Shown piece after piece: positions 3,438 through 42,967 of a DNA stretch of 55,238 bases. Both the position numbers and the translations under genes were made by a program. The DNA is from Lysobacteraceae bacterium (GTDB lineage Bacteria > Pseudomonadota > Gammaproteobacteria > Xanthomonadales > Xanthomonadaceae), in assembly GCA_003241895.1 (NCBI GenBank), contig QBLY01000017.1:2049-57286 (forward strand), written 5' to 3'. Position 1 is the stretch's first letter. Each line of letters starts with the position of its first letter. The notes under the pieces were generated by a model. The model made no database searches and was not told where the DNA came from. It saw only the letters and a program-made list of their open reading frames with translations.

Positions 3438-3470
3438 GGCGGGGCTCGGGGCGGGGATGAAAGCAAGCTT

Positions 3471-3494: not shown

Positions 3495-3572
3495 CATCGG
3501 CAAAACCCGGGTTTCATTGACCGGACCCGGGCCGGGTGTTAAATATTCAGCATCATTTGGGAGGCATGCGCT

Positions 3573-21372: not shown

Positions 21373-21375
21373 GGC

Positions 21376-22897: not shown

Positions 22898-23380
22898 GTG
22901 AACATGACCTCACTTCGCTACCCTGCACCCTGGCTGCTTGCCATCGCGCTGTGCGCCGCCGCAACCCCGGCTTTGGCCCAGGAAGGCACGCCCGGGCAGC
23001 GCGCCCAGGTCCAGGCCCGGCTCGAGACCGCCGTATCGGCCGTGCAGGCCGCTCGCGCCTCGTTGGACAGTGCGCAGGCCAAGCTGGCGACCGCCCGCAG
23101 CCACCTGGACCTGGCCGACCAGGGCCGGATGGACGCCGAAAAGCAGCTTGCCGGCACCGAAGCCCAGGCGGCCCGGGGCAAGGTCACGCGTGAACAGGTG
23201 GACGCTGACCGCGCCGCGGCCGATGCGGCCACGGCGGCCGTGACCGCCGTGCGCGCCGAGATCAACGCCGCCCAGGCTGGCCTGACCGCCAGCCAGGCCA
23301 AGTTGATGTCCGCCAAGACCGCGGTGGATGCCGCCGCCGCCAGCGCGTCAGCCTTCCTGGGCGACGCGCCTGCGGGCTGA
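22898..23380 (+). CDS. Exported Ala-rich coiled-coil protein of unknown function
   Basis: No family recognised. A signal peptide (LAIALCAAATPALA, cut before QEG) precedes about 130 residues that are almost all Ala, Gln, Lys, Arg, Asp and Glu in a helical pattern (for example SAVQAARASLDSAQAKLATA and LTASQAKLMSAKTAVDAAAA), so it is probably a long periplasmic helix or coiled coil. I start at GTG 22898, 5 nt after GGAG; the ATG at 22904 is the alternative. The alternating 'AAxAxLxxAxAxL' pattern resembles the hairpin of membrane-fusion proteins but no flanking lipoyl or barrel domain is present. Divergent from the flavoprotein gene. Confidence 0.75.
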   Translation: MNMTSLRYPAPWLLAIALCAAATPALAQEGTPGQRAQVQARLETAVSAVQAARASLDSAQAKLATARSHLDLADQGRMDAEKQLAGTEAQAARGKVTREQVDADRAAADAATAAVTAVRAEINAAQAGLTASQAKLMSAKTAVDAAAASASAFLGDAPAG

Positions 23381-28368: not shown

Positions 28369-28422
28369 AGAGCAGCGGGCGCGGATTTGAGTGTGATGCT
28401 GGACTGATGAGACCATGATCCG

Positions 28423-29091
28423 ATGAAAACCAGCCCGCCCCGACTGCCTCGCCACCCCGCCGCCGCGTTCGGCGCCGCCGCCCTCTTGATCCTCGCCTTG
28501 AGCACCGTCTCCATGTCCAGCCACGCCACGGAAGAGCCCGAGTATCAGGTCGTTCGCGAGCTCGCGGACATCGAGGTGCGCCAATACGCCGCCTACGCGG
28601 TGGCCGAGGTGGTGGTGCCCGGCCCGGCGGGCAAAGCGGGCGGGCAGGCGTTCCCTATCCTGGCGGGCTATATCTTCGGCAAGAACAAGGGCGAGCGGAA
28701 ATTCGCGATGACCGCGCCGGTCACGCAGACGGCCGCGCCGGTGAAGCTGGAGATGACCGCCCCCGTCACGCAAACCGTCGCGCCCGGCGGCTTCCTGGTG
28801 CAGTTCGTGCTGCCCCGGGGCGTCACCGTGGCCAGTGCGCCCGAGCCCCTGGACGCTCGCGTGCAGCTGCGCGATGTGGTTCCGGCGCGGGTGGCCGTCA
28901 TCCGCTATTCGGGCTTCTGGTCGGCGAAGAACGACGCCCAACACCTGGCCAAGCTGAAGGCGGCCATGCGCGCTGCCGACCTGGCCTGGACGGGCGAGCC
29001 GGTGTACTCGCGCTACAACGCCCCGTTCATGCCGTGGTTCATGCGTCGCAACGAGATCTGGCTGCCCATGGCGCCGGCGAACAAACGCTAG
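28423..29091 (+). CDS. SOUL-family heme-binding protein, exported
   Basis: 222 residues. An N-terminal hydrophobic stretch (AAFGAAALLILALSTVSM) ending at SSHA suggests a signal peptide or anchor. The SOUL/HBP fold is visible from YQVVRELADIEVRQYAAYAV through GAPVKLEMTAPV-type repeats (two MTAPVTQT copies) to YNAPFMPWFMRRNEIWLPM. Family members bind heme or tetrapyrroles; the bacterial role is unknown. It is followed 9 nt later by a cupin gene, with the Shine-Dalgarno GGAGG in the gap. Confidence 0.88.
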   Translation: MKTSPPRLPRHPAAAFGAAALLILALSTVSMSSHATEEPEYQVVRELADIEVRQYAAYAVAEVVVPGPAGKAGGQAFPILAGYIFGKNKGERKFAMTAPVTQTAAPVKLEMTAPVTQTVAPGGFLVQFVLPRGVTVASAPEPLDARVQLRDVVPARVAVIRYSGFWSAKNDAQHLAKLKAAMRAADLAWTGEPVYSRYNAPFMPWFMRRNEIWLPMAPANKR

Positions 29092-29100
29092 GAGGTCCGC

Positions 29101-29493
29101 ATGAAAGGCTACGTGGAAGACATCGAGAGCATCGCCACGCGCAACGAGGATTTCCGTCAGGTGCTTTATACGGCCCAGCATTGCCAGCTGGTGGTGATGG
29201 CGCTCAAGCCCCGGGAGGAAATCGGCGCCGAGGTGCACAAGCTCGACCAGTTCTTCCGGGTCGAACAGGGCACTGGCGAGGTCGTGCTGGACGGGGTTCG
29301 TACGGCGATCAAAGCCGGCTACGCCGTGCTGGTTCCCGCGGGACCCAGGCACAACATCATCAATACCGGAATCGGGCCGCTCAAGCTTTACACGATTTAC
29401 TCACCGCCCAACCATCGCGATGGCGTGGCGCACCACACGCGCGCCGACGCCGAAGCCGACACCGAGCACTTCGACGGCAAGACCTCGGAGTAG
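29101..29493 (+). CDS. Small cupin-domain protein
   Basis: 130 residues forming a single cupin_2 barrel: EIGAEVHKLDQFFRVEQGTG (first motif) and GPRHNIINTG (second motif), with plausible metal ligands His and Glu/Gln in the first and His in the second. Strong Shine-Dalgarno (AGGAGG) and 9-nt spacing couple it to the SOUL gene. Similar proteins are annotated as mannose-6-phosphate isomerase-like cupins; the activity cannot be assigned. Confidence 0.88.
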   Translation: MKGYVEDIESIATRNEDFRQVLYTAQHCQLVVMALKPREEIGAEVHKLDQFFRVEQGTGEVVLDGVRTAIKAGYAVLVPAGPRHNIINTGIGPLKLYTIYSPPNHRDGVAHHTRADAEADTEHFDGKTSE

Positions 29494-29509
29494 CGGTCGC
29501 TGAAGACGG

Positions 29510-29540
29510 CCATGCCCCGGGCATCGCGACCAGGGCATGG
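29510..29540. terminator. Weak convergent hairpin
   Basis: CCATGCCC (29510-29517) pairs with GGGCATGG (29533-29540) over a 15-nt loop, between convergent genes. There is no T-tract, so factor-independent termination is uncertain. Confidence 0.4.
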
Positions 29541-29558
29541 CTAGCCAAATCAGGACAA

Positions 29559-30044
29559 TCAGCGCGGCATGTTTTCTTCGCGCGCTTTTTTCTTTGCAGC
29601 TTCTTCTTCTTGACGCTGCCTTAATTGTTCTTGACGTTCCTTCTTCTTGGCGGCATCCGCTTCTTGCCGCTGGCGTAGCTGTTCCTGGCGTTCTTTTTTC
29701 TTGGCCTCTTCTAGTTCGCGACGCTGTCGTTGCTGCTCTTCGCGCGCTTTTTTCTTTTCGTCATCACTTGCGCCGCTTCCGCGTTGTTGTCCACCAGTGC
29801 GGTTCCGTGCTTTTTCCGCCTTATCTTTGGCGGCATTTTCGCGGATCATGAGTGAACGATTTTTCAGGCATTCGTGATATGCTTTGCCTTTCGCGGCTGA
29901 TTCGCTGGGCGTGACGCCTTTATAGTCAGGTATTTCGCACGGCGGCGGAATGTCACCTGCTTTTTTGTCATCCTTGGCCAAGCAGGCGCTACTGTAGAAA
30001 CCACATATTAGAAGTAGTGCGATGACTCGATACTTCATTTGCAT
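29559..30044 (-). CDS. Exported Lys/Glu/Arg/Gln-rich repeat protein of unknown function
   Basis: 161 residues, not recognised. A signal peptide (MQMKYRVIALLLICGFYSSA, cut near CLA-KDD) is followed by a short Cys-containing segment (PPCEIPDYKG, YHECLKN; two Cys could pair) and then about 80 residues of charged repeat, three degenerate copies of the unit AAKKKERQEQLRQRQE, expected to form a long single helix or coiled coil. MKYRV two codons in is an alternative start. Composition is more AT-rich than flanking genes, and the DNA repeats mirror the protein repeats, so copy number may vary by slippage. It borders the mobile-element scars at 30.1 kb. Confidence 0.7.
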   Translation of the reverse strand: MQMKYRVIALLLICGFYSSACLAKDDKKAGDIPPPCEIPDYKGVTPSESAAKGKAYHECLKNRSLMIRENAAKDKAEKARNRTGGQQRGSGASDDEKKKAREEQQRQRRELEEAKKKERQEQLRQRQEADAAKKKERQEQLRQRQEEEAAKKKAREENMPR

Positions 30045-30136
30045 GTCTCCGATTGGCGAAGCTGCATTGACCTGAGACGAAACGTGTAGCCATTCGGATA
30101 GTGAGTTCTCTACCCTTAACAGGCAAGGCGAGCTCC

Positions 30137-30175
30137 ATGAAGAAGCGATTTACCGATGAGCAGATCATTTCGATG
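30137..30175 (+). pseudogene. N-terminal relic of an IS3-family transposase OrfA
   Basis: The 13 codons MKKRFTDEQIISM match the standard N-terminus of IS3-family (IS407-like) OrfA proteins, and a GGCGAG lies before the ATG. After codon 13 the similarity stops abruptly and the sequence runs into DNA also found upstream of the repeat at 38.2 kb. No other part of the IS is seen. Confidence 0.6.
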
Positions 30176-30219
30176 CGGCTCTACCCTAGAACGGCCTGGC
30201 GCGACCAAAACGGCCACAA

Positions 30220-30251
30220 ACGACAACGCCACCCGAAGGTGGCGTTGTCGT
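30220..30251 (-). terminator. Hairpin terminator behind the ssrA fragment
   Basis: Perfect 14-bp stem (ACGACAACGCCACC at 30220-30233 with 30238-30251) and a tetraloop; on the minus strand it follows the CCA end of the ssrA fragment after 3 nt. An identical stem, differing only in the loop, is at 38253-38284. It looks like an original ssrA terminator. Confidence 0.7.
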
Positions 30252-30254
30252 GTT

Positions 30255-30439
30255 TGGTGGAGGTTGGGGGAGTTGAACCCCCGTCCGAGAGCACTCCATC
30301 TCCGGTACTACATGCTTAGCTAGTTGTTAGTTCTCGTCTACCGGCAACACAACGTGCGAGGCACACCGGCATCCATACCCGCTAAGTTCACTCCTGGTTG
30401 GCGGGTCGCCGCCGGCAGCTGTTCCGTGATAATGACCCT
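30255..30439 (-). repeat. 185-nt partial copy of tmRNA (ssrA 3' part)
   Basis: Aligns without gaps to 42616-42800, the 3' half of the intact ssrA, with four mismatches (about 98% identity). It keeps the T arm, acceptor 3' strand and CCA, but lacks the tag reading frame and the 5' acceptor strand, so it cannot make tmRNA. The match ends abruptly at 30439 inside what is now an MFS gene remnant. Such duplicated ssrA 3' ends are typical leftovers of site-specific integration at ssrA, although 185 nt is long for an attachment core. Confidence 0.9.
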
Positions 30440-30677
30440 GCCGTCGGACCGGCTGCCGCCCGACGTCTTGAAGCTGGGCTTCGTCAGCCTGCCGACCGAT
30501 CTCAGTTCCGAGATGATCTTCCCGGTGTTCGCGGTCTTCTTCACCAGCGTGGCAGGCGCCTCCAACGCCCTGCTGGGGGCCACGTCATCCGCGCTGGTGT
30601 TTTCGCTGGCCGCCGGGCTGTCGGCGGTTGCCATTGCCCTGTTCGTTGGACTGAAGCCGGCGGGCACGCGGGCCTGA
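30432..30677 (+). pseudogene. Internally deleted MFS transporter remnant
   Basis: The frame reads RLPPDVLKLGFVSLPTDLSS then EMIFPVFAVFFTSVAGASNA, the first helix region of an MFS permease, and passes directly into ALVFSLAAGLSAVAIALFVG and KPAGTRA, which looks like a last membrane helix and C-terminus. A normal MFS protein has about 400 residues, so some 300 have been lost in frame. Its apparent ATG (30432) lies inside the ssrA fragment, so the gene's own 5' end is also replaced. Nothing is recognised in 30678-30790. Confidence 0.65.
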
Positions 30678-30790
30678 ATCGATCGGTTTCCAGTTGACCC
30701 CTGGCCGCCAGGACCAGCGGCAACGAAGCGGGCGTCAGTAGGCGCCACGAGGCCAAGTTACCTGCCGAGCCGTGTTGATTTACCGGGAAG

Positions 30791-33700
30791 TCATTCGGGC
30801 GAGGAGTCCGGGGCAGCCGGGTGCGGCTGCCGCCGCCCCGCGGCGAACTCGGCGAAGGCTTCGGCTTCCAGCGGCCTGCTGTAGAAGTAGCCCTGGATCT
30901 CGTTGCAGCCCTTGGCCTTGAGCAGGGCGAGCTGTTCGGCCGTTTCCACGCCTTCGGCGATCGTGCTCATGCCCAGGCTGTGCGCCAACTGCACGATGGC
31001 GCTGATGATGGCCACGTCGCGCCCGCCCGCCGCGAGTTCGCGCACGAAAGACTGGTCTATCTTGAGCTTGTCCACAGGGAAGCGCTTGAGGTAGCTCATG
31101 GACGAGTAGCCGGTGCCGAAGTCGTCGATGGACAGCTTGAAGCCTGCGTGGTGCAGGGCCTCCATGGTGAGGCGTGCGCCTTCGGGGTCGCGCAGGGCCA
31201 CCGCCTCGGTCAGCTCCAGGTCCAGCCAGCGTGTCTCGACCCCAGCTTGGGCGGCTATGCCGCGGACGGTGTCGAGCAGGTTGGGCTGGGCGAACTGGGC
31301 GGCCGCCAGGTTGATCGCCACCGTCAGCCCGTCAAGTCCGGCGTTCTGCCATTCCCGGAGCTGCCTGGCCGCAGTGCGCATCACCCATTCGCCGATGCCC
31401 ACGATCAGGCCGTTGGCCTCGGCCAGCGGCACGAATTCGCCGGGCGACACGTCGCCCCACTGCGGGCTGCGCCAGCGCAGAAGCGCCTCCGCACCGAGCA
31501 GTTCGCCGGTGACCAGAGAGTACTGGGGCTGGTAGGCCAGCCGCAGCTCGTTGCGGGCAATGGCGTACTTGAGCGCCGTGGTCAGCGCCAGCGTGCGCGC
31601 CGTGTACTCCTGCATGGCGGGCGCGAAGAAGCGGAAGGAGTTGCGGCCCTCCTTCTTCACCCGGTACATGGCTGCCTCCGCGCAGGCCCCCAGCGCGGCC
31701 ACGTTGGCGCCGTCACTGGGATACATCGCAATGCCGATAGAGCCGCTCATGATCAGCTCATCCTTGCCCAGCTGGACCGGTGCCTGCAGCGCCTCCAGCA
31801 CGCGTGCGGCCATCGCTGCGGCCTCGGCCTGAGCGGCGCCGGGCATCAGGACGGTGAAGTCGTCCCCCGACTGGCGCGAGGCCAGGTCGTGTTCGCCCAA
31901 TTGGATGCGCAATCGGTTGGCCATTTCGCGCAGCAGCAGGTCGCCGACGTCATGGCCCAGCGAGTCGTTCACCGCCTTGAAGTTGTCAAGGTCCAGCCAA
32001 AGCAGGGCGGCGGTGCCGTGTGACTTGGCCGCGGCTTCCAGGATCTCTTGGAAGCGCTCCTCGAACTGGGTGCGGTTGGGCAGGCCGGTCAGCTGGTCGT
32101 AGTGGGAGAGCTGCTGGATGCGCTCGGCCGCGGCACGCCGGGCCGTGATGTCCTCCTTGTGCGCCAGGTAGGCCACGACCGTACCGCTGACATCGCGGAC
32201 CGGGGAAATGTGCGCCAGCTCGAAGTATTCTTGCCCGTCCTTGCGCCGGTTCACGAGTTCACCCTGCCAGGCGAGGCCCCGGCGCAAGTGGCCCCACATT
32301 TCGGCATAGGTGGCGTCCGGTGTGCGGCCGGAGCGCAGGAAACGCGGGTTTTTACCCAGCACTTCCTCGGGCTGGTAGCCGCTGATGTGGGTGAAGGCCG
32401 GGTTGACGTATTCGATGCGCGCCTTTGCGTCGGTCATGATGATCGCTGCCGGACTCTGCGACACCGCCGACGACAGCCGCTGGATGGTGGCCTCCTGCTG
32501 CCGGCGCTCGGTCACGTCGCGGGCCGTCAGGTACCGCCGCTGGCCGCGGGAGCGGGCACGCCACTCCATGTGGCGGTAGGTGCCGTCCTTCGACAGGTAG
32601 CGGTTGCCGAATTCGACGCGGTCCTCGCGGCCATCCAACGACGCCAGCGCGGCGGCGGTGGTGTCGCGATCGTCCGGGTGCACGAAATCAAGCAGGCGGC
32701 GACCGGCGAGGCGTTCGGAGGGATAGCCCAGCAGGTTTTCCCAGGCATGGTTCACGCGCAGGAACATGCCCTTGGCGTCCACCAGGCTGAACAAGTCAAG
32801 GTCGGATTGGAAGAAGTGGTCCATCTCCTCCTGCTTTTCATGCAGCAGCCGGCCGTTGTGGATGCGGGTGGTGATCTGCCAGAGCGCGTCACCCACCATC
32901 TGCAGTGCCTCGATATCGCGCGAAGTGTAGGCTGCGGCTTGGTCGCCCACGCCCAGCAGTAGCCGGACGGTTGTTCCGTCGAGCACCGGTATCACCAGCA
33001 GCCGCTTTGGCGACGGCCAGGCTTCGGGGAGGCCTTGCGTATCGTTGGCCAGCCCTGCCTGGTCCAGCTGCACGGGCCGTTGCTGCCGCGCGGCGTCTGC
33101 CCAGCGGCCGGCCCGCGCCAACGGCAGGTGGGTGGCGAGTCCTTCCGGCCGGGCGCCGGCGATGCCCTCATGCGACCAGGCCAGCATCTCGAGCGTGTCG
33201 CGGCTTTCGTCCACGGCGGAAACGAAGGCCATGCTGCTGTCGCTCAGCCGCTCGATGAGCCCGACGGCATGCTGGAGCAAACCGGCTTCTCCCAGCGCCT
33301 CCGCCTTCACCGGCAACGCAAGCAGGACCTGGTTGAGGCGCGCATCTTGCTCGATCGCGGCCTGCTTCTCGACCATCCCGGTGACGTCGCGCGAGAGCAC
33401 AAGATAGTGCAGCTCACCTGCCTTTCCGACAGGTTTGCGTGTGACCGACAGTTCATAGTGTCGCCGCCCGGCGGGCACCTCCAGCTCGATGCGCGTTCCG
33501 GTGCTGCGGCCGTGGCGGCGCGCCTCGATGATCGCGGCCAGGCACGCCTGGGCCGCCGCCTCGGGCATGACGTCGCGCAGGTTTCGACCCACCAGCTGTT
33601 GCGCGGGTGCCAGCAGGTCCTCTTCCCCGTTGGCGTGGATAACGAGGTAGTTGCCCTCGACGTCCATCTCGAACAGCAGGTCGGGCAGGGTGTGGAGCGT

Positions 33701-34540
33701 AGCCGCGAGGTTGGCCTGCGAGGCCCCGAGTTCGGCATAGGGGGTACGCACGGCCTCGAGGAAAAGCGCGCGATAGAGGAACAGGTAGGCCACGACCTTG
33801 AAGACATGCCCGGCCAGTGCGTAGGCGTCGTTGATGCTGCCGTAGCTGGCGAAGAAATAGCCGCTCATGGCGCTGGCGCCGGCGGCGCCGAGCAGGGCGC
33901 CGGTGTGCCGGACGCGCGGTTTGCGCAGCTCCAGCAGCAGCAACACCAGCGCGGCCAGCGCAGCCAGCACCAGCACCAGCTCAACCGCCAGCTTGGTCGA
34001 GGTCAGCCCCTGGCCAGTGACGAAAAGCGGCGGCAGCAGATCCATCCGCCCCATCACCAGTGCATGCCCCAGCGCGATGACGGACAGCGCGATCGCCAGG
34101 GAGCCGACGCGCGGCGTCGCCGGTGCGCTTTCGTTGGGCATCAGCACGGCCACCAGGACCGCCATCGCCGCCAGGCTGCGTGCGAACAGCCAGAAGTAGA
34201 GCGTCTTGTCGTGGGTGTTGGGGCCCAGGAAGGCCGGCATGCCGGTCAGCGACAGCGTGTGGGACAGGTCGAACACCGCCACGCCCAGGAACAGGCAGCC
34301 GGTCCAGAGCGTGCGCCGCGAGGGCCGCAGCAACTGGGCGCTCCAGCCCAGCGCGAATATCATCGCCGACACGGCGACCGCAAACATCTCCAGCGCGCTG
34401 TGAGCCGGCAGGTAGAAGGACAGGGGAACGCCGGGTGTGAAGAAGGGCAGCAAGATCACGGCCAACAGCGCCAGCAACATCACGGACAGCGTCACGAAGC
34501 TTGCGCTGGCTTCCTTGCGATGGCTGGGGTGGATGAACAC
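30791..34540 (-). CDS. MASE3-PAS-GAF-PAS-PAS-GGDEF-EAL c-di-GMP signalling protein
   Basis: 1249-residue inner-membrane protein. About seven membrane segments at 1-260 form a MASE3-type sensor (LFLGVAVFDLSHTLSLTGMP). PAS (about 275-395), GAF (410-560) and two PAS domains (to about 810) follow. The GGDEF motif is degenerate, SGDDF in SRQSGDDFTVLM. The EAL domain looks complete: EALLRW, INLAAAQF, ELTEA, DDFGTGYSS, DKLKIDQSFV, AEGVET and QGYFYSRP. Net phosphodiesterase activity is therefore more likely than cyclase. It starts at GTG 4 nt after the stop of the CHASE-domain gene and probably depends on coupled translation. Confidence 0.88.
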   Translation of the reverse strand: MFIHPSHRKEASASFVTLSVMLLALLAVILLPFFTPGVPLSFYLPAHSALEMFAVAVSAMIFALGWSAQLLRPSRRTLWTGCLFLGVAVFDLSHTLSLTGMPAFLGPNTHDKTLYFWLFARSLAAMAVLVAVLMPNESAPATPRVGSLAIALSVIALGHALVMGRMDLLPPLFVTGQGLTSTKLAVELVLVLAALAALVLLLLELRKPRVRHTGALLGAAGASAMSGYFFASYGSINDAYALAGHVFKVVAYLFLYRALFLEAVRTPYAELGASQANLAATLHTLPDLLFEMDVEGNYLVIHANGEEDLLAPAQQLVGRNLRDVMPEAAAQACLAAIIEARRHGRSTGTRIELEVPAGRRHYELSVTRKPVGKAGELHYLVLSRDVTGMVEKQAAIEQDARLNQVLLALPVKAEALGEAGLLQHAVGLIERLSDSSMAFVSAVDESRDTLEMLAWSHEGIAGARPEGLATHLPLARAGRWADAARQQRPVQLDQAGLANDTQGLPEAWPSPKRLLVIPVLDGTTVRLLLGVGDQAAAYTSRDIEALQMVGDALWQITTRIHNGRLLHEKQEEMDHFFQSDLDLFSLVDAKGMFLRVNHAWENLLGYPSERLAGRRLLDFVHPDDRDTTAAALASLDGREDRVEFGNRYLSKDGTYRHMEWRARSRGQRRYLTARDVTERRQQEATIQRLSSAVSQSPAAIIMTDAKARIEYVNPAFTHISGYQPEEVLGKNPRFLRSGRTPDATYAEMWGHLRRGLAWQGELVNRRKDGQEYFELAHISPVRDVSGTVVAYLAHKEDITARRAAAERIQQLSHYDQLTGLPNRTQFEERFQEILEAAAKSHGTAALLWLDLDNFKAVNDSLGHDVGDLLLREMANRLRIQLGEHDLASRQSGDDFTVLMPGAAQAEAAAMAARVLEALQAPVQLGKDELIMSGSIGIAMYPSDGANVAALGACAEAAMYRVKKEGRNSFRFFAPAMQEYTARTLALTTALKYAIARNELRLAYQPQYSLVTGELLGAEALLRWRSPQWGDVSPGEFVPLAEANGLIVGIGEWVMRTAARQLREWQNAGLDGLTVAINLAAAQFAQPNLLDTVRGIAAQAGVETRWLDLELTEAVALRDPEGARLTMEALHHAGFKLSIDDFGTGYSSMSYLKRFPVDKLKIDQSFVRELAAGGRDVAIISAIVQLAHSLGMSTIAEGVETAEQLALLKAKGCNEIQGYFYSRPLEAEAFAEFAAGRRQPHPAAPDSSPE

Positions 34541-34544
34541 GAGG

Positions 34545-37322
34545 CTAGGCGCCGCCCGCCGCCGGGTTGATCGCGGTGTCCTCGATCAGCCCCAGCACCG
34601 GGGCATGTTCGCCTTCGCTGGCCAGGGTGGCATTGATGCCGATGGCGACGCGGCTTCCGTCCGGCCGCTCCGCGCTGATCACTTTGTTGATCGCCCGGGC
34701 CCGGCCATGGGTCAGGTCGTCCAGCGCCTGACCAATCACTTCGCGATGGCTGGGTTCGGCCAGCTCATCCAATCGGCGCCCGATCAGCGCATCGGGGCCC
34801 GGTACGCCGAGTAGTTCACCGGCGCGCGGGTTGGCATAGCGGATCACGCCGTCCTGCACGATGAACGCACCGATGCGCGAGGCATCCACCAGGATGCGGA
34901 AGCGCTCCTGGCTATCTTGCTGCAGCTTCCGGAACGCCTGGGCGTCGGATCTGATGCCCAGCCTGTCCAGTGCGAAGTTGACGTTTGAAACGATCTGCTC
35001 CACCAACTGGCGGGTGTCCGCGTTGCCCAAGCCCGGTTGGGTTGAGAACAGGGTCAGCACCGCAAACGGCTTGCGGTCGCGCAGCAGCGGCAGGAAGGCG
35101 GCGGTACGCCACCCAAAGTGGCTGCCGATGGCCTGCCAGTCGGCCAACCTGTCGTCGCCGCCGAATTCGTCGATCCAGACCGGGCGCAATTCGCGCGCCG
35201 TGATGCCGATCGGGCCGCGTCCCGCCATCTCGCCCGGATCCACCGACACCGCCACCTCACCCACGGTGCCGGCGCCTTCGCCGCGCGCGCAGGCCGGATG
35301 CACCTGGCCGCTGGCCGGATCAATCCGGCCGACCCACGCGGTATGGAAGCCAGCGTGGCGCACCAGCACGTCGCAGACGCGCTCCAGCAGTTCATCCTGG
35401 TTCGCGCAGTGCACGATCGCCCAGTTGCACTCGCTCAACGCCGTATAAAGCCGGTTCGATTGCTCCAGCCGCAAAGCCGCCTGTTTGCGTTCGGTGATGT
35501 CGGCGACGACGCCATGGATCCCGGTGACGCTGCCATCGGCGGCGCGCATCCGTTCGCCGCGCGCTTGCATCCAGCCGTGGCGGCCGTCGGCGCTTATGAA
35601 TTCCAGCTCGAGCTCGTTGGCGGTCCCGCCCGCCAGCATTTGTTCCACGGAGGCACTCAATGCCTGGAAGCTGTCCTGGGTGAAATAGCGGTGGTGGGTT
35701 TCGAACGAAGGCGCCTGGCCGCTGGGGTCCACCGGCAGGCCCAGCATCTCGAACACCTCGGGTGTCCAGGCGACCTGCCTGCTGGCCTTGTCCAGGGTCC
35801 AGCTGCCGAAGCGGGCAATGCGCTGCGCGTCCTCCAGTTCGGCCCGGCTTCGCCGAAGCGAAGCCTCCAGCGCCTTGTCCTGACTAATGTCGGCAAGGGT
35901 GCCGATCATCCGGCGCGGCGCACCCGTTTGGCTGCGGTCAACGACGATGCCGCGGTCGAGCACCCAGAGGTAGTGGCCGTCCTTGTGGCGCAGGCGGTGC
36001 TCGCAGGCATAGGTCGGGCTGCGGCCCTCCAGATAATCGTTGACGGCGGCGAACTTGCGCACGCGGTCGTCGGGATGGATGCGATCGGACCACGCGTCCA
36101 GCCGATGCTCGAGTTCGCCGGGGCCGAAGCCGAGCAACTGCTCGAAACGATGCGAGAACCAGACCGTGCCGTGGTCCAGGTTCCAGTCCCAGAGGCCGTC
36201 GCCCGAGCCTTCCAGCGCGAAGCGCCAGCGGAACTCACTTTCCTCGAGATCTTTCTCCCTGCGCCGTATCGTCTCGGTCATTGTATGGGCGAGCTGCAGG
36301 CCGCCCTCGCGGGTCCGTGCCAGCGACATCAGCAGCCCGAACAGCAGCCCGCTCAGCGCCGCGCCGCCGGCCAATGTCACCCATGCGGGCAGGTAGCTCG
36401 GAGCAGGTGCCCTGCTGCTGCGGTGGAAACCAAGCCACCAGGCGTGGCCGTGGAAATCCAGGGTCCGGTGCGTGGCGGGGCCACCGTCGCCCAGTCCGCC
36501 GCCATTGGCGTTGGCGCTGTCGAACAGCAGCCGATCGGGGTCCGGTGCGCTGCCATCGTAGATGCGAAGCTGCAGGAAGCTTCCTTCCTTGGTCTGCCAG
36601 TTCTTCAGCAGGCCCGACATCAGGTCATTCATCCGGTAAGGGCTGTAGGCCCAGCCCATCAAAGCCTCGCGGCGCTGCTCGATGGAATCGGTCGGTCTGC
36701 CGTTGCGATAGACGGGCACATACATCAGCGTGCCGGCCTGCACATCGGTGTCCTGCTCCAGCAACAGCACGACCTTGCCCGACAGCGCCGCGTGGCCGGT
36801 GTCGCGGGCCCGTGACATGGCATCGCGCCGGACCGGTTCGGAATACATGTCATAGCCAAAGGCCCGCAGGTTTCGGCCCTCGAAAGGCTCAAGGAAAACG
36901 ACGGCGCTGTAATGTTCGCGCGGCCCCTCGGGCTTTACGCGGTAGTCCGGGAAACCCTCTGCGCGGACGGCCGACTCATGCAAAGCGAGCTGCTCAGGCG
37001 AAATCGCCACTGCAAACCCGATGCCCGCGGTGCCTGGCACCAGTTCGTCGGCATGAAGCTCTTCGACGAAGCGCCGCCATTCTTCGCGACTCACGGCGTC
37101 GCTGCCCAAGTGCAGTCCGGCTGCTCCACGCAGGATTAGTTCGTAAGCGCGCAGCCTCGCGCCGATCTTTTGCGTCACCTGGTCTGCCGCGAATCCGAAC
37201 TGGTGCGCGGCGTCGCGCCGGATGTCCTGGTAAACCAGCCAGGCACCCAGGGCGCTGGCAGCCAGGCCGACGCCCAAGGCCGCGCGGGCTAGCAGGACGG
37301 CTGGGCGCGGTGCCTCGGGCAT
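34545..37322 (-). CDS. CHASE-PAS-PAS-GAF-PAS sensor protein without an output domain
   Basis: 925 residues from MPEAPRPAVLL; a TTG start 45 nt upstream is less likely. Membrane helix at about 10-30, periplasmic CHASE domain at about 60-270 (AGIGFAVAISPEQLALHE, LMYVPVYRNGRPT), second helix at about 295-320, then PAS with a clear PAC (HRLRHKDGHYLWVLDRGIV), a second PAS, a GAF domain and a last PAS ending GLIEDTAINPAAGGA. There is no kinase, GGDEF, EAL or methyl-accepting domain. The protein ends where many homologues would continue into GGDEF-EAL, and the next gene begins 4 nt later, suggesting a sensory partner of that protein or a decayed fusion. Confidence 0.82.
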   Translation of the reverse strand: MPEAPRPAVLLARAALGVGLAASALGAWLVYQDIRRDAAHQFGFAADQVTQKIGARLRAYELILRGAAGLHLGSDAVSREEWRRFVEELHADELVPGTAGIGFAVAISPEQLALHESAVRAEGFPDYRVKPEGPREHYSAVVFLEPFEGRNLRAFGYDMYSEPVRRDAMSRARDTGHAALSGKVVLLLEQDTDVQAGTLMYVPVYRNGRPTDSIEQRREALMGWAYSPYRMNDLMSGLLKNWQTKEGSFLQLRIYDGSAPDPDRLLFDSANANGGGLGDGGPATHRTLDFHGHAWWLGFHRSSRAPAPSYLPAWVTLAGGAALSGLLFGLLMSLARTREGGLQLAHTMTETIRRREKDLEESEFRWRFALEGSGDGLWDWNLDHGTVWFSHRFEQLLGFGPGELEHRLDAWSDRIHPDDRVRKFAAVNDYLEGRSPTYACEHRLRHKDGHYLWVLDRGIVVDRSQTGAPRRMIGTLADISQDKALEASLRRSRAELEDAQRIARFGSWTLDKASRQVAWTPEVFEMLGLPVDPSGQAPSFETHHRYFTQDSFQALSASVEQMLAGGTANELELEFISADGRHGWMQARGERMRAADGSVTGIHGVVADITERKQAALRLEQSNRLYTALSECNWAIVHCANQDELLERVCDVLVRHAGFHTAWVGRIDPASGQVHPACARGEGAGTVGEVAVSVDPGEMAGRGPIGITARELRPVWIDEFGGDDRLADWQAIGSHFGWRTAAFLPLLRDRKPFAVLTLFSTQPGLGNADTRQLVEQIVSNVNFALDRLGIRSDAQAFRKLQQDSQERFRILVDASRIGAFIVQDGVIRYANPRAGELLGVPGPDALIGRRLDELAEPSHREVIGQALDDLTHGRARAINKVISAERPDGSRVAIGINATLASEGEHAPVLGLIEDTAINPAAGGA

Positions 37323-37391
37323 GGGGGTCTCACGGCCGGTGGGATTGAGAAAAAGTAACAGAACCAAGGGGACGCAGGAACCACCGCTTGC

Positions 37392-38180
37392 CTAGGATTG
37401 CCCTTTATTCTTTCCCGCATGCCAGGCCACCGACAGCAGGGCAGAAAATCCGACCAAGGCCACCCCGAACGCCCCGTTCTCGTTGAACGACCCGACGAAC
37501 TCGGTCAAGGGCTGCAGGCCGCCGTACTTGCGCATGAGCGCATTGATGGCTTCGTTGATGAAAAACACCAGGCCCACCAACAGCCACGGCCAGCCATGGC
37601 GCCGGTTCCTGAGAAAGAAGGCGGTCCCGAGCACGGCGATGACAAGCCCGGCGGCCGCCGCGGCGGTGCCGAATCGATAGAAGGTCTCAGGCCCCTCGAT
37701 CCTGAACTGCGGAACGAAGCTCAGCAGGGAAAAGAACAGTGCGATTCCCAAGAACATCAGGGAAGAGCTCATCAGGAACGCGCCGTGCAGGTTCCGGTTC
37801 TTGCGCAGGGCGAACGCCAACGCGATGACCAGGCCCAACTCGAAGGTCATCATGACGTTCTGGACAATCAGGCGGTCGGCCTGCGCTTCAACCAGGGCCC
37901 TGGCGGCCGAATGCACCGAAAGCATGGCCAGGGTCGCCACGATCAAGGGACCCATCACGAAAATGGCCAGCCCGATATCCCGATGCCGGGAAAACCTTTT
38001 CCGCTCGATATTGACGAGTTGGACCAACAGCAAAGCCAGCCAGAGCAGACTTGTCACCAGGTGCAGGTAGTGCACGCCGCCTGGATCTGCCTCCGGCCCC
38101 ATGAACAGCTTCCAGAATCCCCCGATGCTCACGAGGATCACCAGCACCAACAGGGCTATCTCTGGCTTGTGGCTTTTCAT
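37392..38180 (-). CDS. Multi-pass membrane protein of unknown function
   Basis: 262 residues from MKSHKPEIALLVLVILVSIG with about seven or eight hydrophobic helices (for example YLHLVTSLLWLALLLVQLVN, LMFLGIALFFSLLSFV and GWPWLLVGLVFFINEAINAL). Several His residues fall in or near helices (VHYLHLVT), which could mean heme or metal binding, but I recognise no family. It is 69 nt upstream of the CHASE gene on the same strand, so it may belong to that signalling operon. Confidence 0.75.
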   Translation of the reverse strand: MKSHKPEIALLVLVILVSIGGFWKLFMGPEADPGGVHYLHLVTSLLWLALLLVQLVNIERKRFSRHRDIGLAIFVMGPLIVATLAMLSVHSAARALVEAQADRLIVQNVMMTFELGLVIALAFALRKNRNLHGAFLMSSSLMFLGIALFFSLLSFVPQFRIEGPETFYRFGTAAAAAGLVIAVLGTAFFLRNRRHGWPWLLVGLVFFINEAINALMRKYGGLQPLTEFVGSFNENGAFGVALVGFSALLSVAWHAGKNKGQS

Positions 38181-38222
38181 GGCGTGGTCCCAGTCAACGC
38201 TTTCGTAGCAGTTCCACCTCGG

Positions 38223-38302
38223 AACGGCCTGGCGCTGGAAGAAAGGCCACAAACGACAACGCCACCCGAGGGTGGCGTTGTCGTGTTTGGTGGAGGTGGG
38301 GG
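38223..38302. repeat. Third ssrA-3'-end scar with shared terminator flank
   Basis: TTTGGTGGAGGTGGGGG at 38286-38302 equals the extreme tmRNA 3' end plus flank at 42614-42630, then diverges. On its left, the 14-bp hairpin (38253-38284) and AACGGCCTGGCGC (38223-38235) match the flank of the 30.25-kb ssrA fragment (30190-30265). It therefore looks like an att junction separating two inserted segments. Confidence 0.75.
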
Positions 38303-38363
38303 CCACTGAACAGACGCTCCGGAGCCGCCAACTGCGCGATTCTCACCGCGGGCAGCGTGGGGC

Positions 38364-38385
38364 GTGCCCCCAAATATACCCCCGC
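38364..38385. repeat. CCCCC-type end repeat, left end of island
   Basis: GTGCCCCCAAATATACCCCC (to 38383) matches 42472-42491 at the other end of the island, with the two CCCCC blocks in the same register (16 of 22 positions identical over 38364-38385). Possible integrase arm-binding sites; inference only. Confidence 0.45.
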
Positions 38386-38864
38386 TAGTCGAGGATCCCG
38401 GTCAACAGTGGTAGCGCCTTCTGCCAGTTCGAAAGCCCGGCGTCCATCAGCTTCAATGCAAGGTGCTTGGTCATTTCGGCGGGTAGCTTCCGGAGCGTCT
38501 GAACGTAGCGCTCCTTCTCTGCAGGCGGCAGGTCTGAGTCCCGAATCTTGACCGCAACCAGTTCCTTCAACGTGTCCTCGTGCAGCCTCACTGTGACCAC
38601 TCCAAGGATCGCGCCGAGCCCGCCATCTTCAGCGAGAAAATCGATGCCCTTTGCGGTAATCGTTACGCCCTTGGGAGGACCCCGGCGGCCATGTGGCTGG
38701 GGGTGAAAAGCCTCTAGCAAGCCATGTTCATCCAGGTAGGCAACGTTGACCCTTAGCTCCCGATCCCCGATTCCGAGATCTTCAACCGGAAACGCTGCGG
38801 GATAGGTATTGAATGCGCTTTCGAGCAACTTCCTTTGCAGACCGCGATCAAGTAATTCTCCCAT
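38385..38864 (-). CDS. Small protein with probable winged-helix domain
   Basis: 159 residues from MGELLDRGLQRKLLESAFNT, with CTGGAG seven bases before the ATG; an in-frame ATG at 38936 would add 24 residues but lacks a ribosome binding site. The first 75 residues read as a winged helix (VNVAYLDEHGLLEAF... PPKGVTITAKGIDFLAEDGG), and the rest is a helical segment ending LSNWQKALPLLTGILD. Similar small proteins occur in phage and island DNA, but I cannot name a family. It lies last in the island. Confidence 0.7.
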   Translation of the reverse strand: MGELLDRGLQRKLLESAFNTYPAAFPVEDLGIGDRELRVNVAYLDEHGLLEAFHPQPHGRRGPPKGVTITAKGIDFLAEDGGLGAILGVVTVRLHEDTLKELVAVKIRDSDLPPAEKERYVQTLRKLPAEMTKHLALKLMDAGLSNWQKALPLLTGILD

Positions 38865-39177
38865 GGGGTAGCTCCAGTGCGCCGAATCGGTAGGGGTGTT
38901 GGACAAACAACGGAGCCGGACGGCGTACTCGGTCATTTGACCCGGATAGTTGGAGCCCCCTGGGCTGCCCACGCAATCTTGCAGGCATGGCCTCCACCGC
39001 TTCGAAACCAAGAGCCCGGCCAGAAGCTGCCTCAGGCCGCCCATCGGGGTCCTGTCGGCGCGGGCAGCATCTACCAGCGCATGCCGCCAAGTAGTTCCGC
39101 GATGGTTGCAAAGGGGCTGGCAGTATCCGGTGTGCACTGTGTAGCGGCCGAAGTACAGGCAGAGGCGCCAGTTTTGG
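38865..39177. other. Non-coding stretch inside the island
   Basis: 313 nt between the winged-helix-type gene and the DUF2971 gene. Open frames exist on both strands but none has a convincing start, ribosome binding site or recognisable protein. It probably holds the promoter of the downstream gene; I see no tRNA, repeat or hairpin. Confidence 0.5.
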
Positions 39178-39945
39178 TTAGTCCGGTCGGCTTGGGCCAG
39201 TTGACTCTTCTGGGCGAAAGAACTCCATTTTGAACTCGCTCAAACTCGGACGTGATATGAATATCGCCGGGGCAGGGTCGTAGTTCCTCAGCATCGCAGC
39301 TACCAAGTTGGCATTCTCGTTCGTTACGCGGGGACCGAGGTAAACGCCAGTTAAGCTTGCTGCCTCGAACCCGAACTTGGTTCCAGCTGTCTGGTGAATA
39401 ACCCGCCACTCACGCTCATACGCCCAGTCTTTCGATTTCGTAAAATATAGATCTAATGCGCGCCCATAATCCTTCTTGACGAGCAATTCATCAGCAACGA
39501 TTGACGGGAAGCAATCCCCATAATCGACCCGTCGAGCCTTAGCGAACAGAATGTCTGCTGTGTCAAACTCTAGACAGATGCCTCGGCCGCAATCCGCGTA
39601 GTGTGACCACATCAAGAGGTTATCGTTAGTCTCGGAAAAACAACTGACTCCGCGCAACTCCAAGAACTCATGGGACAACTCCTTCAGCGTTGCACGCGCC
39701 CGTTCAGTCAACAGCGTCCGGATTGAAGGCTGAAATCGCGCAAGGTTCGTTGCATTGGCTTCAGATAGGATGGTTTTTACGCCTTCTTGGGAAAGCTCTT
39801 GCACAACTGCACTAATCGCACAGTCGAACGGGTCATTGAAGTGCTTAGGTGAGCCGAAATAGACAACTCTGGCCAGCAAGTTGACCAGCGAGTTCAAGTT
39901 GATACTTTCGTACTTGTAAAGTCTCGGGGGCAGTGTAGTAGCCAT
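39178..39945 (-). CDS. DUF2971 family protein
   Basis: 255 residues, start MATTLPPRLYKYESIN. The family pattern is clear: RLYKYES near the N-terminus, VYFGSPKHFNDPFDCAI, the core SETNDNLLMWSHYADCGRGI followed by CLEFD, and YEREWRVIH. The biochemical role of DUF2971 proteins is not known, and they recur in mobile and defence islands. It lies 97 nt after ptuB on the same strand and may be an accessory of the Septu pair or an independent system. Confidence 0.85.
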   Translation of the reverse strand: MATTLPPRLYKYESINLNSLVNLLARVVYFGSPKHFNDPFDCAISAVVQELSQEGVKTILSEANATNLARFQPSIRTLLTERARATLKELSHEFLELRGVSCFSETNDNLLMWSHYADCGRGICLEFDTADILFAKARRVDYGDCFPSIVADELLVKKDYGRALDLYFTKSKDWAYEREWRVIHQTAGTKFGFEAASLTGVYLGPRVTNENANLVAAMLRNYDPAPAIFISRPSLSEFKMEFFRPEESTGPSRPD

Positions 39946-40042
39946 GGTCCCTCGCGGTTGCTATGCGCATCGCCGCGCCAATATGAGTGAAGTGCTTTCA
40001 GGCGTTCACGGCGCCGCGTGTTTAGACGTGCGCCTATCCGCG

Positions 40043-40747
40043 TCAAATTCGACCTTTTCGAACTGGCATTGTTGTCCTTCGATCAAAGCAGGCCGGGTCC
40101 GCTTGAAACGCGCGAATCAGCGCGCGGCGCACTTCAGGATGCTGTTCGAATGCTTCCATCCAAATGCTGAAGTAGCCCATCAGGGCGGCATTCGTGGCAA
40201 CGAAATCCACGTTGTCTGGGGTGGGTTCCCGCTCGTACCTCGTTCGAAACCCAACTATTTGCCCCCACTGCTGTTTGCGTTTACTCAAGCCGTCATACAC
40301 CAAGCCAAGCTTCTGATAGGAAGCGGCGTTGGCAGAGCTGAGTACAAGTCCGGCCATGTCTAGAGTTCGCTTCGCGGCATCCAAAGTCTCCCCGGTCACG
40401 CCTGTACGAACGTCTACACTTCCGTCCGGATGGTACTTGTATGCGCGGAACGTATTCTCGAGGTGTGGCCACAAGTAGCGAACGAACAGATTTTTGCACT
40501 TGCCGTTGCCGAGATGTATGCCCTTGTAGCTGTTGCAGGTATTGCACGAGATCAAGAAGTTTGACCACAGTAGTGCTCGGGCTGGGTGCGGCTTCTTTGG
40601 GTATATGTGCTCAACTGCCAAGTTCTGCGGATCCGCAGACGCCTCACAATACGAGCAGTGCATGCCCAGTCTAGCGATCAAGTCCGGCTTAGCATCGCCA
40701 TAGGCTGAATAAACTTTCGGCGACGGGCCTCTTTCTACGGGCTTCAT
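40043..40747 (-). CDS. ptuB: HNH endonuclease, Septu PtuB-like
   Basis: 234 residues with an N-terminal HNH zinc-finger nuclease domain at about 28-78: MHCSYCEASADPQNLAVEHI then YPKK, and NFLISCNTCNSYKG. Cys31, Cys34, Cys68 and Cys71 would bind zinc, and Glu46-His47 and Asn63 would be catalytic. This is the C-x2-C...EH...N...C-x2-C pattern of the PtuB / TIGR02646-like nucleases. Its start overlaps the ptuA stop by 4 nt, the usual sign of a co-translated complex. Predicted to cut nucleic acid when PtuA senses phage infection. Confidence 0.85.
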   Translation of the reverse strand: MKPVERGPSPKVYSAYGDAKPDLIARLGMHCSYCEASADPQNLAVEHIYPKKPHPARALLWSNFLISCNTCNSYKGIHLGNGKCKNLFVRYLWPHLENTFRAYKYHPDGSVDVRTGVTGETLDAAKRTLDMAGLVLSSANAASYQKLGLVYDGLSKRKQQWGQIVGFRTRYEREPTPDNVDFVATNAALMGYFSIWMEAFEQHPEVRRALIRAFQADPACFDRRTTMPVRKGRI

Positions 40748-42234
40748 GGCGCTTCCCTGGGTCCGAGCGTTAGGTCGGCGTGTAGATTCAAGAAGGCTTG
40801 GTATGCGGGGTTGTCAGCGTAAGGTTGTGACAAAGCATCTAGCGTCTCCCGCAGCTCACCCAACTTCGCACGACTTTGCCGGGACTCACCGGGTCGCAGT
40901 TCCTCTACTGATTCAAGTAGAGCGAAGTACTCGCGAGCCACTTCCAGCATTTCAAGATACCGAACACTAACTTCGGGATCTTCGATTCCCATAACTTTGA
41001 CCGCAATCTCTTCAATGCCGCGGTCTGTGAACTCCCCAAGGATCTCTCTGTCGAGATGCTGCACATTGCGCTCAGTCACCGATTGAACAACAAAGGGTGA
41101 ATGTGTTGTTGCAATGAATTGGCAATTCGGAAAGAGCTTCTCGAGGGCAGGAACGATCATCCGTTGCCATTTCGGATGAAGGTGGACATCAATTTCATCA
41201 ATTAGGACTACCGCCGCGTGCCGCTCGTCACGAAGTGTGTTTCCGTACTTAACAGAAAGTTTTCGCGCAATATCCACGAACAGTGAGAATAATCTTTGTT
41301 CTCCGTCAGAGAGCTGAGAAAGCAAAAACTCTCTACCATCCGTAGTTAATACCCGAATGCGTGGTGTGAGCCGAACTCGAACAGTGCAGTTCGAGAAATT
41401 CCCCGTCTCTTTTGACGGCTCCTGATACCTGCGAAGAAGCTCGCTGAATTCAGGCAGGACTTTTCTTGGTCGGCCGACACCTAGCGCGATGCCGTTTGAG
41501 TTTATGGTAACTGCTTCCTTATCGAGGAACCGGAGCGGTCCTTTGCGCGACTCGCGCAGGTATCGCATGACGGCCGCTTCGAGTAGCTTGTCTCGAGATG
41601 AAGGTCGGTCAAGCTTTCCTCTGGGTTCCTCCACCCATTGAACCGAACAAGCAAAGGGTTCGAAGCTCCAAGAGAAATCCCTGAATCGAGGCGAAAATCT
41701 CTCCAAGACACTGACTACGAATTCGCGTACATCTCTGCTCGACCCGAAGGTCGGTTCACCGTCAGCGAAGTTGCCCGGACGTTCGCGTTGGTCGTACAGC
41801 CATTGCTCCGTGTCATCGCCAATAGCCTGCCGGTTGATGCGCGGCTGTGATGTGCGTCGGGTTACGAAGCTACTGCACGTGGCCTCGTTAGACCGATACC
41901 AGAGTATCAGCGGCAAGGTTCTCGGAATGGAACGCGTGGCGCGAGTTCCGAAAGCGCGCCTATACATGGCGACTGATCCCGTTCTTGATGAAAGATCGTC
42001 GGCGAGACATGTTGACACTTCAAGGTGTGAATGGAAAAAACCGATATCAGTGTCTTGGAGGGCGGTGCGCCAGCGCACCTGCTCACGTGTCGCGAGAGTC
42101 GCAAAGATGGACCGCAGCACAGTCGTCTTACCTGCCCCGTTCTCGCCTACGATTAAATTGAATCCGGGGCGGAATGAGAAATCCCTCGACTCAAAACTCC
42201 GGACGTTGGCCAGGTTGATCTTGCTTACGTACAT
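40744..42234 (-). CDS. ptuA: AAA ATPase, Septu PtuA-like (RecF/OLD type)
   Basis: 496 residues. N-terminal MYVSKINLANVRSFESRDFS, Walker A GENGAGKTT at 30-38, a long middle region, then the ABC-type signature LSDGEQRLFSLFVDIARKL, Walker B VVLIDEIDVHLHPKWQ and switch His in IATTHSPFVVQ. There is no TOPRIM domain, so it is not a classical OLD nuclease. In Septu the ATPase binds and controls the HNH partner PtuB. The gene lies first in the island; a promoter must be in 42235-42400. Confidence 0.85.
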   Translation of the reverse strand: MYVSKINLANVRSFESRDFSFRPGFNLIVGENGAGKTTVLRSIFATLATREQVRWRTALQDTDIGFFHSHLEVSTCLADDLSSRTGSVAMYRRAFGTRATRSIPRTLPLILWYRSNEATCSSFVTRRTSQPRINRQAIGDDTEQWLYDQRERPGNFADGEPTFGSSRDVREFVVSVLERFSPRFRDFSWSFEPFACSVQWVEEPRGKLDRPSSRDKLLEAAVMRYLRESRKGPLRFLDKEAVTINSNGIALGVGRPRKVLPEFSELLRRYQEPSKETGNFSNCTVRVRLTPRIRVLTTDGREFLLSQLSDGEQRLFSLFVDIARKLSVKYGNTLRDERHAAVVLIDEIDVHLHPKWQRMIVPALEKLFPNCQFIATTHSPFVVQSVTERNVQHLDREILGEFTDRGIEEIAVKVMGIEDPEVSVRYLEMLEVAREYFALLESVEELRPGESRQSRAKLGELRETLDALSQPYADNPAYQAFLNLHADLTLGPREAP

Positions 42235-42442
42235 TTTACTTCGAAGGTGGCTGAGCCTTACGCTCCAATCGGAGTGTGGTCATTGCCGCGTGCCGGAGCA
42301 AGCTTGTCGAAATGCCTGACGCCGGGCCGAAGGCGCCGACCTGCCGCCGCTTGTGCGTCCTGCAAGCGCTTGTGAGCTCGCTATTTGATGGACTTTTCGC
42401 CGGGCACCTTGGATCGAATGGCTAGATCAGTGAGGGGCATGC

Positions 42443-42493
42443 TGGGGGTATCTCGGGGCAGCGAAGGAGTCGTACCCCCACACTTACCCCCAG
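42443..42493. repeat. CCCCC-type repeats, right end of island
   Basis: GTACCCCCACACTTACCCCC (42472-42491) corresponds to the repeat at 38364, and an inverted unit GGGGGTA lies at 42444-42450. Spaced repeats next to an integration site resemble integrase arm sites. No integrase gene accompanies them. Confidence 0.45.
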
Positions 42494-42539
42494 AACAGAT
42501 GATCTTGCAAGATGCCGCATGAGTCCCGATGAGACACAA

Positions 42540-42581
42540 AAAAGGCCGGAAGGCCTATTTATAAGCGCTTTCCGGCCTTTT
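42540..42581 (-). terminator. Terminator of the intact ssrA
   Basis: AAAAGGCCGGAA (42540-42551) pairs with TTCCGGCCTTTT (42570-42581); read on the minus strand the stem ends in a run of T. It lies 34 nt beyond the tmRNA CCA and differs from the hairpin terminators at 30.2 and 38.25 kb, so the intact gene now uses a different, probably island-borne, terminator. Confidence 0.75.
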
Positions 42582-42615
42582 CTGATCCCGCGTGATTCGT
42601 GCTGAATCACTCTTT

Positions 42616-42967
42616 TGGTGGAGGTGGGGGGAGTTGAACCCCCGTCCGAGAGCACTCTATCTCCGGTACTACATGCTTAGCTCGTTGTTAGTTCTCGTCT
42701 ACCGGCAACACAACGTGCGAGGCACACCGGCATCCATACCCGCTAAGTTCACTGCTGGTTGGCGGGTCGCCGCCGGCAGCTGTTCCGTGATAATGACCCT
42801 ACATCCACGAGCACGGGCACAAGTGGGTTCGGGGCTTACGCCTTAAGCGGCGAGAGCGTAGTTGTCGTCGTTGGCAACTAAATTTTGCAGCTGGATTAAC
42901 GAGGAAAGCTACCCCCTCGGCATGCACCAGTCGACTTTGCGACCCCCGTCGAAGCCAGGACACCCCC
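42616..42967 (-). ncRNA. ssrA: tmRNA
   Basis: 352 nt. The 5' end GGGGGTG pairs with CACCTCC before ACCA at the 3' end, giving a full 7-bp acceptor stem (third pair G-U), and CCA is encoded. The T arm GGGGGTTCAACTCCCCC is present. The tag frame (42875 down to 42843) encodes ANDDNYALAA followed by TAA. tmRNA acts with SmpB to rescue stalled ribosomes and tag nascent proteins. smpB lies 85 nt upstream. Partial copies at 30255 and 38288 show that its 3' end is an integration hot spot. Confidence 0.97.

Follow-up and report, generated by a model that had tools for sequence, protein, structure and literature searches.

In the 55,238-nucleotide (nt) stretch of contig QBLY01000017.1 of a Lysobacteraceae bacterium analysed here (hereafter the window), two insertions are presumably stacked at the 3' end of ssrA, the gene of the transfer-messenger RNA (tmRNA): a chromosomal segment of close kin added first by recombination, and an island of a tyrosine integrase, which carries a putative Septu defence pair, added later. 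We assign this reading a probability of about 70%. According to ARAGORN the window contains one tmRNA gene (tag ANDDNYALAA), and two partial copies of this gene lie downstream of its 3' end, which is leftwards in the window, 8.03 kb apart. The copies and the terminators associated with them are:

42616..42967, minus strand: intact ssrA (ARAGORN), the target gene, with its 3' end as attachment (att) core; the sole full copy in the draft genome
42538..42583, minus strand: terminator-like hairpin on the island side, next after the regenerated 3' end of ssrA, GGCCGGAA...TTCCGGCC followed by a T run, of non-chromosomal type
38286..38302, minus strand: displaced 17-nt copy of the ssrA 3' end, the putative distal att site of the Septu island (BLAST)
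38247..38285, minus strand: second copy of the chromosome-type ssrA terminator, then the flank GAACGGCCTGGCGC; differs from the left copy at 1 of 43 nt (alignment)
30255..30439, minus strand: ssrA 3' half of 185 nt, ssrA positions 168-352, with 4 mismatches to the intact gene
30214..30254, minus strand: original ssrA terminator in its native context with the left flank (alignments)

BLAST within the window aligned 30253-30439 with 42614-42800 (187 nt, 4 mismatches, E 6e-90 to 1e-89) and 38286-38302 with 42614-42630 (17/17 identical). The latter match is marginal on its own (E 0.003-0.008), but it exceeds chance because the terminator and the flank are common to both partial copies, which align together with their surroundings at 84% over 102 nt (30168-30269 versus 38201-38302, E 2e-27 to 1e-27) and both contain the flank GAACGGCCTGGCGC. 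The intact ssrA is followed by a hairpin unlike the terminator of the partial copies. At E 0.001 the draft genome holds two ssrA matches, the intact gene and the 185-nt copy. These results bear out the initial annotation, which had reported an intact ssrA, a 185-nt copy with 4 mismatches and a 15-17 nt copy of the 3' end, the partial copies having a terminator and flank in common and the intact gene a different one.

The genome of the same-genus relative G023 provides the empty site: there the terminator and the DNA found left of 30.2 kb in the window follow ssrA immediately, and both inserted segments are absent. When the window flanks are joined, their alignment with G023 crosses the junction and extends over 895 nt (88%); it is interrupted where G023 has 9 nt in place of about 117 in the window, and resumes for a further 619 nt (82%). 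The flanks behind the left and the middle terminator copy differ, and only the left one matches the native flank of G023 (the GTTTTGGTC block); left and middle flanks also have common bases that are absent from G023. A terminator of the chromosomal type was detected directly behind ssrA in seven of the 17 same-genus loci tested (G023, G026, G008, G003, G012, G006 and G004), out of 22 loci available.

These loci were drawn from 27 genomes of the genus, the own genome included, of which 23 had an ssrA match; longer stretches were taken for 22 relatives, and the four genomes lacking a match are uninformative on the order of the 30-43 kb region. Three of the loci (G014, G025 and G013) comprise less than 300 nt behind ssrA and are thus uninformative on gene order as well. 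With this limit, the window's 30-43 kb order occurs in none of the 22 loci. An allele lacking just one of the two segments, including one lacking the Septu island alone, was not found among the genomes compared. G020 shows an additional 136-nt piece of the ssrA 5' part at a contig end in the genus search.

The initial annotation had proposed at least two stacked insertions of the same orientation, and this is supported by the empty site, the direct junction of ssrA with the DNA left of 30.2 kb being what it had suggested looking for in relatives. A 30-43 kb order kept in relatives without any empty site, which it had named as speaking against its proposal, was not seen in the loci compared. 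Its claim that the last insertion replaced the ssrA 3' end and terminator fits an ssrA-proximal island that arrived last. For the 185-nt copy it had offered two explanations, either of which may reasonably hold: homologous recombination, or an element with half of the tmRNA gene on board. Three points go beyond that annotation, namely the loss of the integrase from the proximal island, the lack of a detected integrase signature in the distal segment and the hint of an older third layer in G023.

The proposed order of events is as follows. Recombination in ssrA would first have added a 7.8-kb segment of close kin, consisting of the 3' part of ssrA, its terminator, a membrane gene, genes of a CHASE and a GGDEF-EAL protein and a broken transporter-like piece, and would thereby have displaced the recipient's 185-nt ssrA 3' half with its terminator and flank to 30.2 kb. 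Later, an island of a tyrosine-integrase family that targets the terminal 15-17 nt of ssrA would have entered between the gene and the first segment, regenerating the ssrA 3' end, supplying its own terminator and displacing the 17-nt copy to 38.29 kb. This island would since have decayed, so that of the integrase only the first 19 codons are left, while the Septu pair and a DUF2971 gene persist between two att ends. Since the integrase is lost and the att ends are kept, the island might move only by means of an integrase provided in trans. The copies, the empty site, the distal ends in common with two other islands and the terminators of chromosomal type are observed directly; the time order of the two events, RecA-type recombination for the first segment and the latent mobility of the island are what we infer.

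The segment between the intact ssrA and the 17-nt copy (38303-42613, 4.3 kb) has a GC content of 0.55, compared with 0.665 for 30440-38246 and 0.67-0.69 for the outer stretches. From the ssrA-proximal to the distal end it contains:

42443..42492, no strand: three-site cluster of TGGGGGTA within 50 nt, candidate integrase arm sites at the proximal end
42381..42440, minus strand: putative integrase remnant, the 19-codon start MPLTDLAIRSKVPGEKSIK followed by a stop, resembling the start of the Arm-DNA-bind_3 tyrosine integrase of G015
40744..42234, minus strand: ptuA-like ATPase gene (Septu; Pfam AAA_21/AAA_15, PADLOC PtuA 1.1e-60)
40043..40747, minus strand: ptuB-like HNH nuclease gene (Septu; HNH, PADLOC PtuB 7.5e-56), overlapping the end of ptuA by 4 nt
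39178..39945, minus strand: DUF2971 protein gene adjoining the Septu pair, PADLOC defence candidate PDC-S31 (Pfam, PADLOC)
38385..39137, minus strand: open reading frame (ORF) at the distal island end, with no family match in Pfam, PADLOC or NCBIfam
38365..38383, minus strand: distal-end motif GGGGGTA-N5-GGGGGCA (alignment), at whose place G017 has AGGGGTA-N5-GGGGGTA and G010 GGGGGTA-N5-GGGGGTA

All three window matches of TGGGGGTA lie inside 42443..42492; 0.57 were expected in the window, and three matches anywhere were reached in four of 100 shuffles. The 19-codon stretch agrees with the start of the G015 integrase at 79% over 29 nt, and although the tblastn value of E 0.022 is weak alone, position and frame fit, so that the stretch is likely an integrase remnant recognised mainly by its position. 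A tblastn search with the G015 and G017 integrases gave no match in the 16 kb behind the window ssrA at E 1e-4.

The adjacency of a PtuA ATPase and a PtuB HNH nuclease, by which Septu is recognised, was found with PADLOC, both proteins scoring below the NCBIfam cut-offs; the pair likely represents phage-defence genes. Families of transfer or integration were not detected among the four ORFs of 38385-42234 in Pfam, PADLOC and NCBIfam. A PtuA scan of contigs of other genomes yielded 29 loci, 15 of which had a PtuB match at E 1e-4, with an identity of 47-57% in three (L102-L104) and 25-30% in twelve. Neither the DUF2971 protein nor the 38385-39137 ORF had a match at E 1e-4 in these 29 PtuA loci from other taxa, and ARAGORN predicted a tRNA in one and a tmRNA in none of them; these absences are weak because several of the loci are short.

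Related ssrA islands were found in other genomes, as the initial annotation had anticipated for att-flanked islands, in G017 and G010. The integrase gene of G017 begins some 170 nt behind ssrA, and the 15-nt core CCCCCACCTCCACCA is located 6.2 kb behind ssrA, followed by the chromosomal terminator. In G010 the same core CCCCCACCTCCACCA lies 3.7 kb behind ssrA with no integrase match, and in G015 an integrase gene follows ssrA with no second core before the contig end. Both integrases (G017, G015) combine an Arm-DNA-bind_3 with a Phage_integrase domain. The distal island ends of the window, G017 and G010 align; each contains two GGGGGTA-type repeats separated by five bases, and the core, and the alignment includes GGCCCCCACCTCCACCAAA. 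At the proximal end the hairpin at 42538..42583 resembles a hairpin of G015 in nearly the same position (77% over 43 nt), and of TGGGGGTA two sites were found in G017 and no exact one in G015 or G010. The G010 locus (L031, about 140-3858) is itself an att-framed 3.7-kb segment without detected integrase, with a BrnT-like toxin gene (below the Pfam cut-off) and a CopG antitoxin gene at its distal end.

Taken as a whole, 38303-42613 combines a regenerated ssrA and a displaced 3' fragment of the same orientation with ends that match integrase-bearing islands, the distal end with G017 (and the integrase-less G010) and the proximal end, more weakly, with G015, and a relative, G023, has an allele without both segments. 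An intact tyrosine integrase gene is lacking, and the segment was filed as a decayed member of this group. From these sequence features we conclude that it is a decayed ssrA-specific tyrosine-integrase island close to a cis-mobilizable element (CIME), with both att sites kept and the integration and transfer genes lost. Possibly it is cis-mobilizable.

The distal segment (30440-38246) differs in that its GC content of 0.665 is like that of its surroundings; it is headed by the chromosome-type terminator. Its genes are:

37392..38180, minus strand: predicted membrane protein, 262 amino acids if the start is the ATG at 38180; weak 7TMR-DISM_7TM match below cut-off
34545..37367, minus strand: CHASE-PAS-GAF sensor protein (Pfam), with a relative in G014
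30791..34540, minus strand: MASE3-GAF-PAS-GGDEF-EAL protein of cyclic di-GMP (cyclic diguanosine monophosphate) metabolism (Pfam), with a 74% relative in G014
30440..30677, plus strand: open 79-codon piece abutting the 185-nt ssrA copy, no Pfam match; presumably a decayed transporter

No integrase was detected in this segment, and neither an integrase nor arm-type sites were found at either of its ends, its single GGGGGTA site being located at 33740. Relatives of both large proteins occur together only in G014 besides the own genome (27 genomes, cut-offs E 1e-150 and 1e-120). The membrane protein has relatives of 44-53% in five other genomes of 294 searched, and its gene was not found in G014 at E 1e-15. 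In G014 the CHASE and GGDEF genes abut a gene which we take from its translation to be msrB, and in G026, G006 and others this putative msrB adjoins ssrA and its terminator. Furthermore, the ssrA contig of G014 ends with one hairpin arm, and the contig with the CHASE and GGDEF genes starts with the complementary arm and a T run. Joined by eye across this one contig gap, the c-di-GMP genes of G014 appear to lie directly behind ssrA. In the window the putative msrB and a neighbouring gene (20929-21387 and 22929-23374) are in swapped order compared with G026 and G014. A GGDEF-EAL relative 18 kb from ssrA in G007, with other ORFs between, was set aside as probably a coincidence.

The two ssrA copies of the window agree in two bases, A in aligned column 234 and T in aligned column 270, that are absent from the 18 relatives aligned (of 22), and they differ at 4 of 185 sites, whereas the relatives differ from the intact gene at 7-32. 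These private changes and the few differences indicate that the donor of the 7.8-kb segment was very close kin. The segment most likely arrived as chromosomal DNA of such kin via recombination in ssrA. A single crossover of a circle, or a linear piece joined by one homologous and one illegitimate end, would give the arrangement; the latter route is described in some published work as homology-facilitated illegitimate recombination.

Several observations weigh against this order of events. The joins are those of a draft assembly of 53 contigs. A genome with ssrA, terminator, membrane gene, CHASE and GGDEF genes and transporter piece in this order, that is a donor, was not found, and a search of 118 other family genomes at E 1e-10 gave no relative of the 79-codon piece. 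At aligned column 314 the intact ssrA agrees with G015 in having an A and the left copy sides with most relatives, so that the history within ssrA may be more mosaic. With respect to the later island, the proximal end of G015 has no exact GGGGGTA site, the displaced core of G010 is followed by a terminator of another type, and the 19-codon match is short; the same lax search, among the matches listed, also matched an integrase stretch to window 30033-30146 at E 0.065, and noise therefore begins near the level of the 19-codon match. Finally, an integrase-made first insertion with a long att retains some probability because the left copy keeps the att core with one mismatch within the last 15 nt of ssrA; owing to this mismatch the 3' cores of the two partial copies differ.

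The latter scenario, in which both segments are integrase-made islands, seems rather unlikely to us. The 7.8-kb segment would then be a circle cut between two ssrA cores of the donor, starting with the chromosomal terminator because it was excised between such cores, with 185 nt of ssrA as att and its integrase lost too. The presence of the 3' core in both partial copies is consistent with this, stacked islands would allow circles between their cores, and tandem ssrA islands are described in the cited part of a study on Dehalococcoides (PMC3146451). The negative integrase search over the 16 kb behind ssrA, the lack of a GGGGGTA site at the segment ends, the host-like GC content and the apparent residence of both large genes behind ssrA in G014 argue against it. 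Moreover, 185 nt far exceeds a core of 15-17 nt and is the longest second copy in 297 family genomes (two candidates scored per genome); because the related ssrA islands use 15-17 nt, an att core of 185 nt was not adopted as the principal explanation of the copy. A segmental duplication within one genome, named in the initial annotation as the alternative that would overturn its proposal, appears improbable. A tandem duplication from the interior of ssrA to the interior of the transporter-like gene, after which the other genes would have been reduced to one copy again, would yield the junction of the transporter-like piece with ssrA position 168 in one step and would agree with the private changes common to both ssrA copies. 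It is disfavoured by the flanks, of which only the left one is native in G023, and by searches of window 1-30254 (blastn and tblastn, E 1e-3), in which neither the DNA nor the proteins of the segment gave a match. Chimeric joins at the repeated ssrA, for which the draft state of the genome (53 contigs) speaks, are the least probable of these explanations, considering that the ssrA copies differ at four sites and have distinct flanks, that synteny of the outer flanks extends to G023 and other genomes, and that the inserted genes appear as ssrA neighbours in G014.

Compared with these alternatives, the recombined segment followed by an integrase island is preferred, and the region left of 30.1 kb may represent a still earlier addition, a third and older layer. 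This is suggested by G023 (L026), where a degenerate copy of the ssrA end, together with a terminator whose 43 nt are all identical, lies 1.8 kb behind ssrA (9050-9107) and bounds the counterpart of the following segment:

28254..30065, no strand: segment that in G023 follows ssrA and its terminator directly and has the further terminator copy as its boundary (G023 comparison)
30066..30182, no strand: about 117 nt where G023 has 9, unaligned in the empty-site comparison

A scan of the ssrA strand of the window in which as many as 13 of the 43 nt could mismatch detected no third terminator copy. Part of 30066-30182 resembles the start of an insertion-sequence transposase and is presumably the remnant of such an element.

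Searched with the 185-nt ssrA 3' half, 7 of 297 family genomes, the own one included, gave two matches (two candidates scored per genome). The shorter matches of the other six, with up to 40 candidates scored, measure 69 nt in G299 (at a contig edge), 83 nt in G108, 67 nt in G135, 34 nt in both G252 and G173 and 25 nt in G063 (on the opposite strand), the 185 nt of the window being the longest of all. Only G252 among these six has both matches on one contig and strand. The count of seven is a lower bound because the power for short fragments is weak and drafts are split at repeats. In G252 (C1:226119-247762), which belongs to another genus, ssrA and the 34-nt same-strand 3' copy lie 21.4 kb apart and may frame an ssrA island.

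The locus is a clean stack of discernible order at a gene often targeted by islands. An allele with the empty site is known for it, as are related islands, some with a detected integrase and some without, and one of its insertions appears to have been made by recombination and not by means of an integrase. One way for a defence cassette to become established behind ssrA is suggested by it, and its junctions bear on the mobility of att-framed cassettes without integrase. It is conceivable, though on balance doubtful, that the zone behind ssrA grows in general without as well as with integrases, downstream regions of close relatives being added by recombination in ssrA and its terminator and each leaving a terminator copy (at 30.2 and 38.2 kb, and the pair in G023), and that integrase-less att-ended defence cassettes may ride on the integrases of related islands.

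According to the cited part of the Islander work, no tRNA isoacceptor type is as enriched among integration targets as the tmRNA gene, and the arrays recorded there include tandem ones (PMC4383910). The window has the same regenerated ssrA, displaced 3' fragment of the same orientation downstream and island between them as the tyrosine-integrase islands in tRNA and tmRNA genes described there, but it differs in having a second fragment of 185 nt and an integrase cut to a 19-codon start, because of which the Islander integrase filter, as outlined in that part, would reject it. In Dehalococcoides, multiple tandem islands downstream of one ssrA are bounded by direct repeats of the ssrA 3' end, and several are stacked behind one gene as in the window; where such an island has an integration module, its recombinase is of the serine type, with a 20-bp repeat, in contrast to the putative tyrosine-integrase remnant and the 17- and 185-nt copies found here (PMC3146451). 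With CIMEs and site-specific accretion, as portrayed in the cited sections of PMC5704250, the Septu island has the att frame, the lost integration gene and the stacking with another segment in common, whereas no conjugative relative was identified for it. A study of defence islands names the tmRNA locus of E. coli as a hotspot of various types of mobile element, and the likeness to the window is that elements at the tmRNA gene were examined there for defence cargo; the taxon is a different one, and the sections cited do not place Septu at this gene (PMC10121019). The stack in the window is therefore a known kind of genome traffic, the accretion of islands at tmRNA genes, of which the leftover 185-nt fragment is an unusually long trace.

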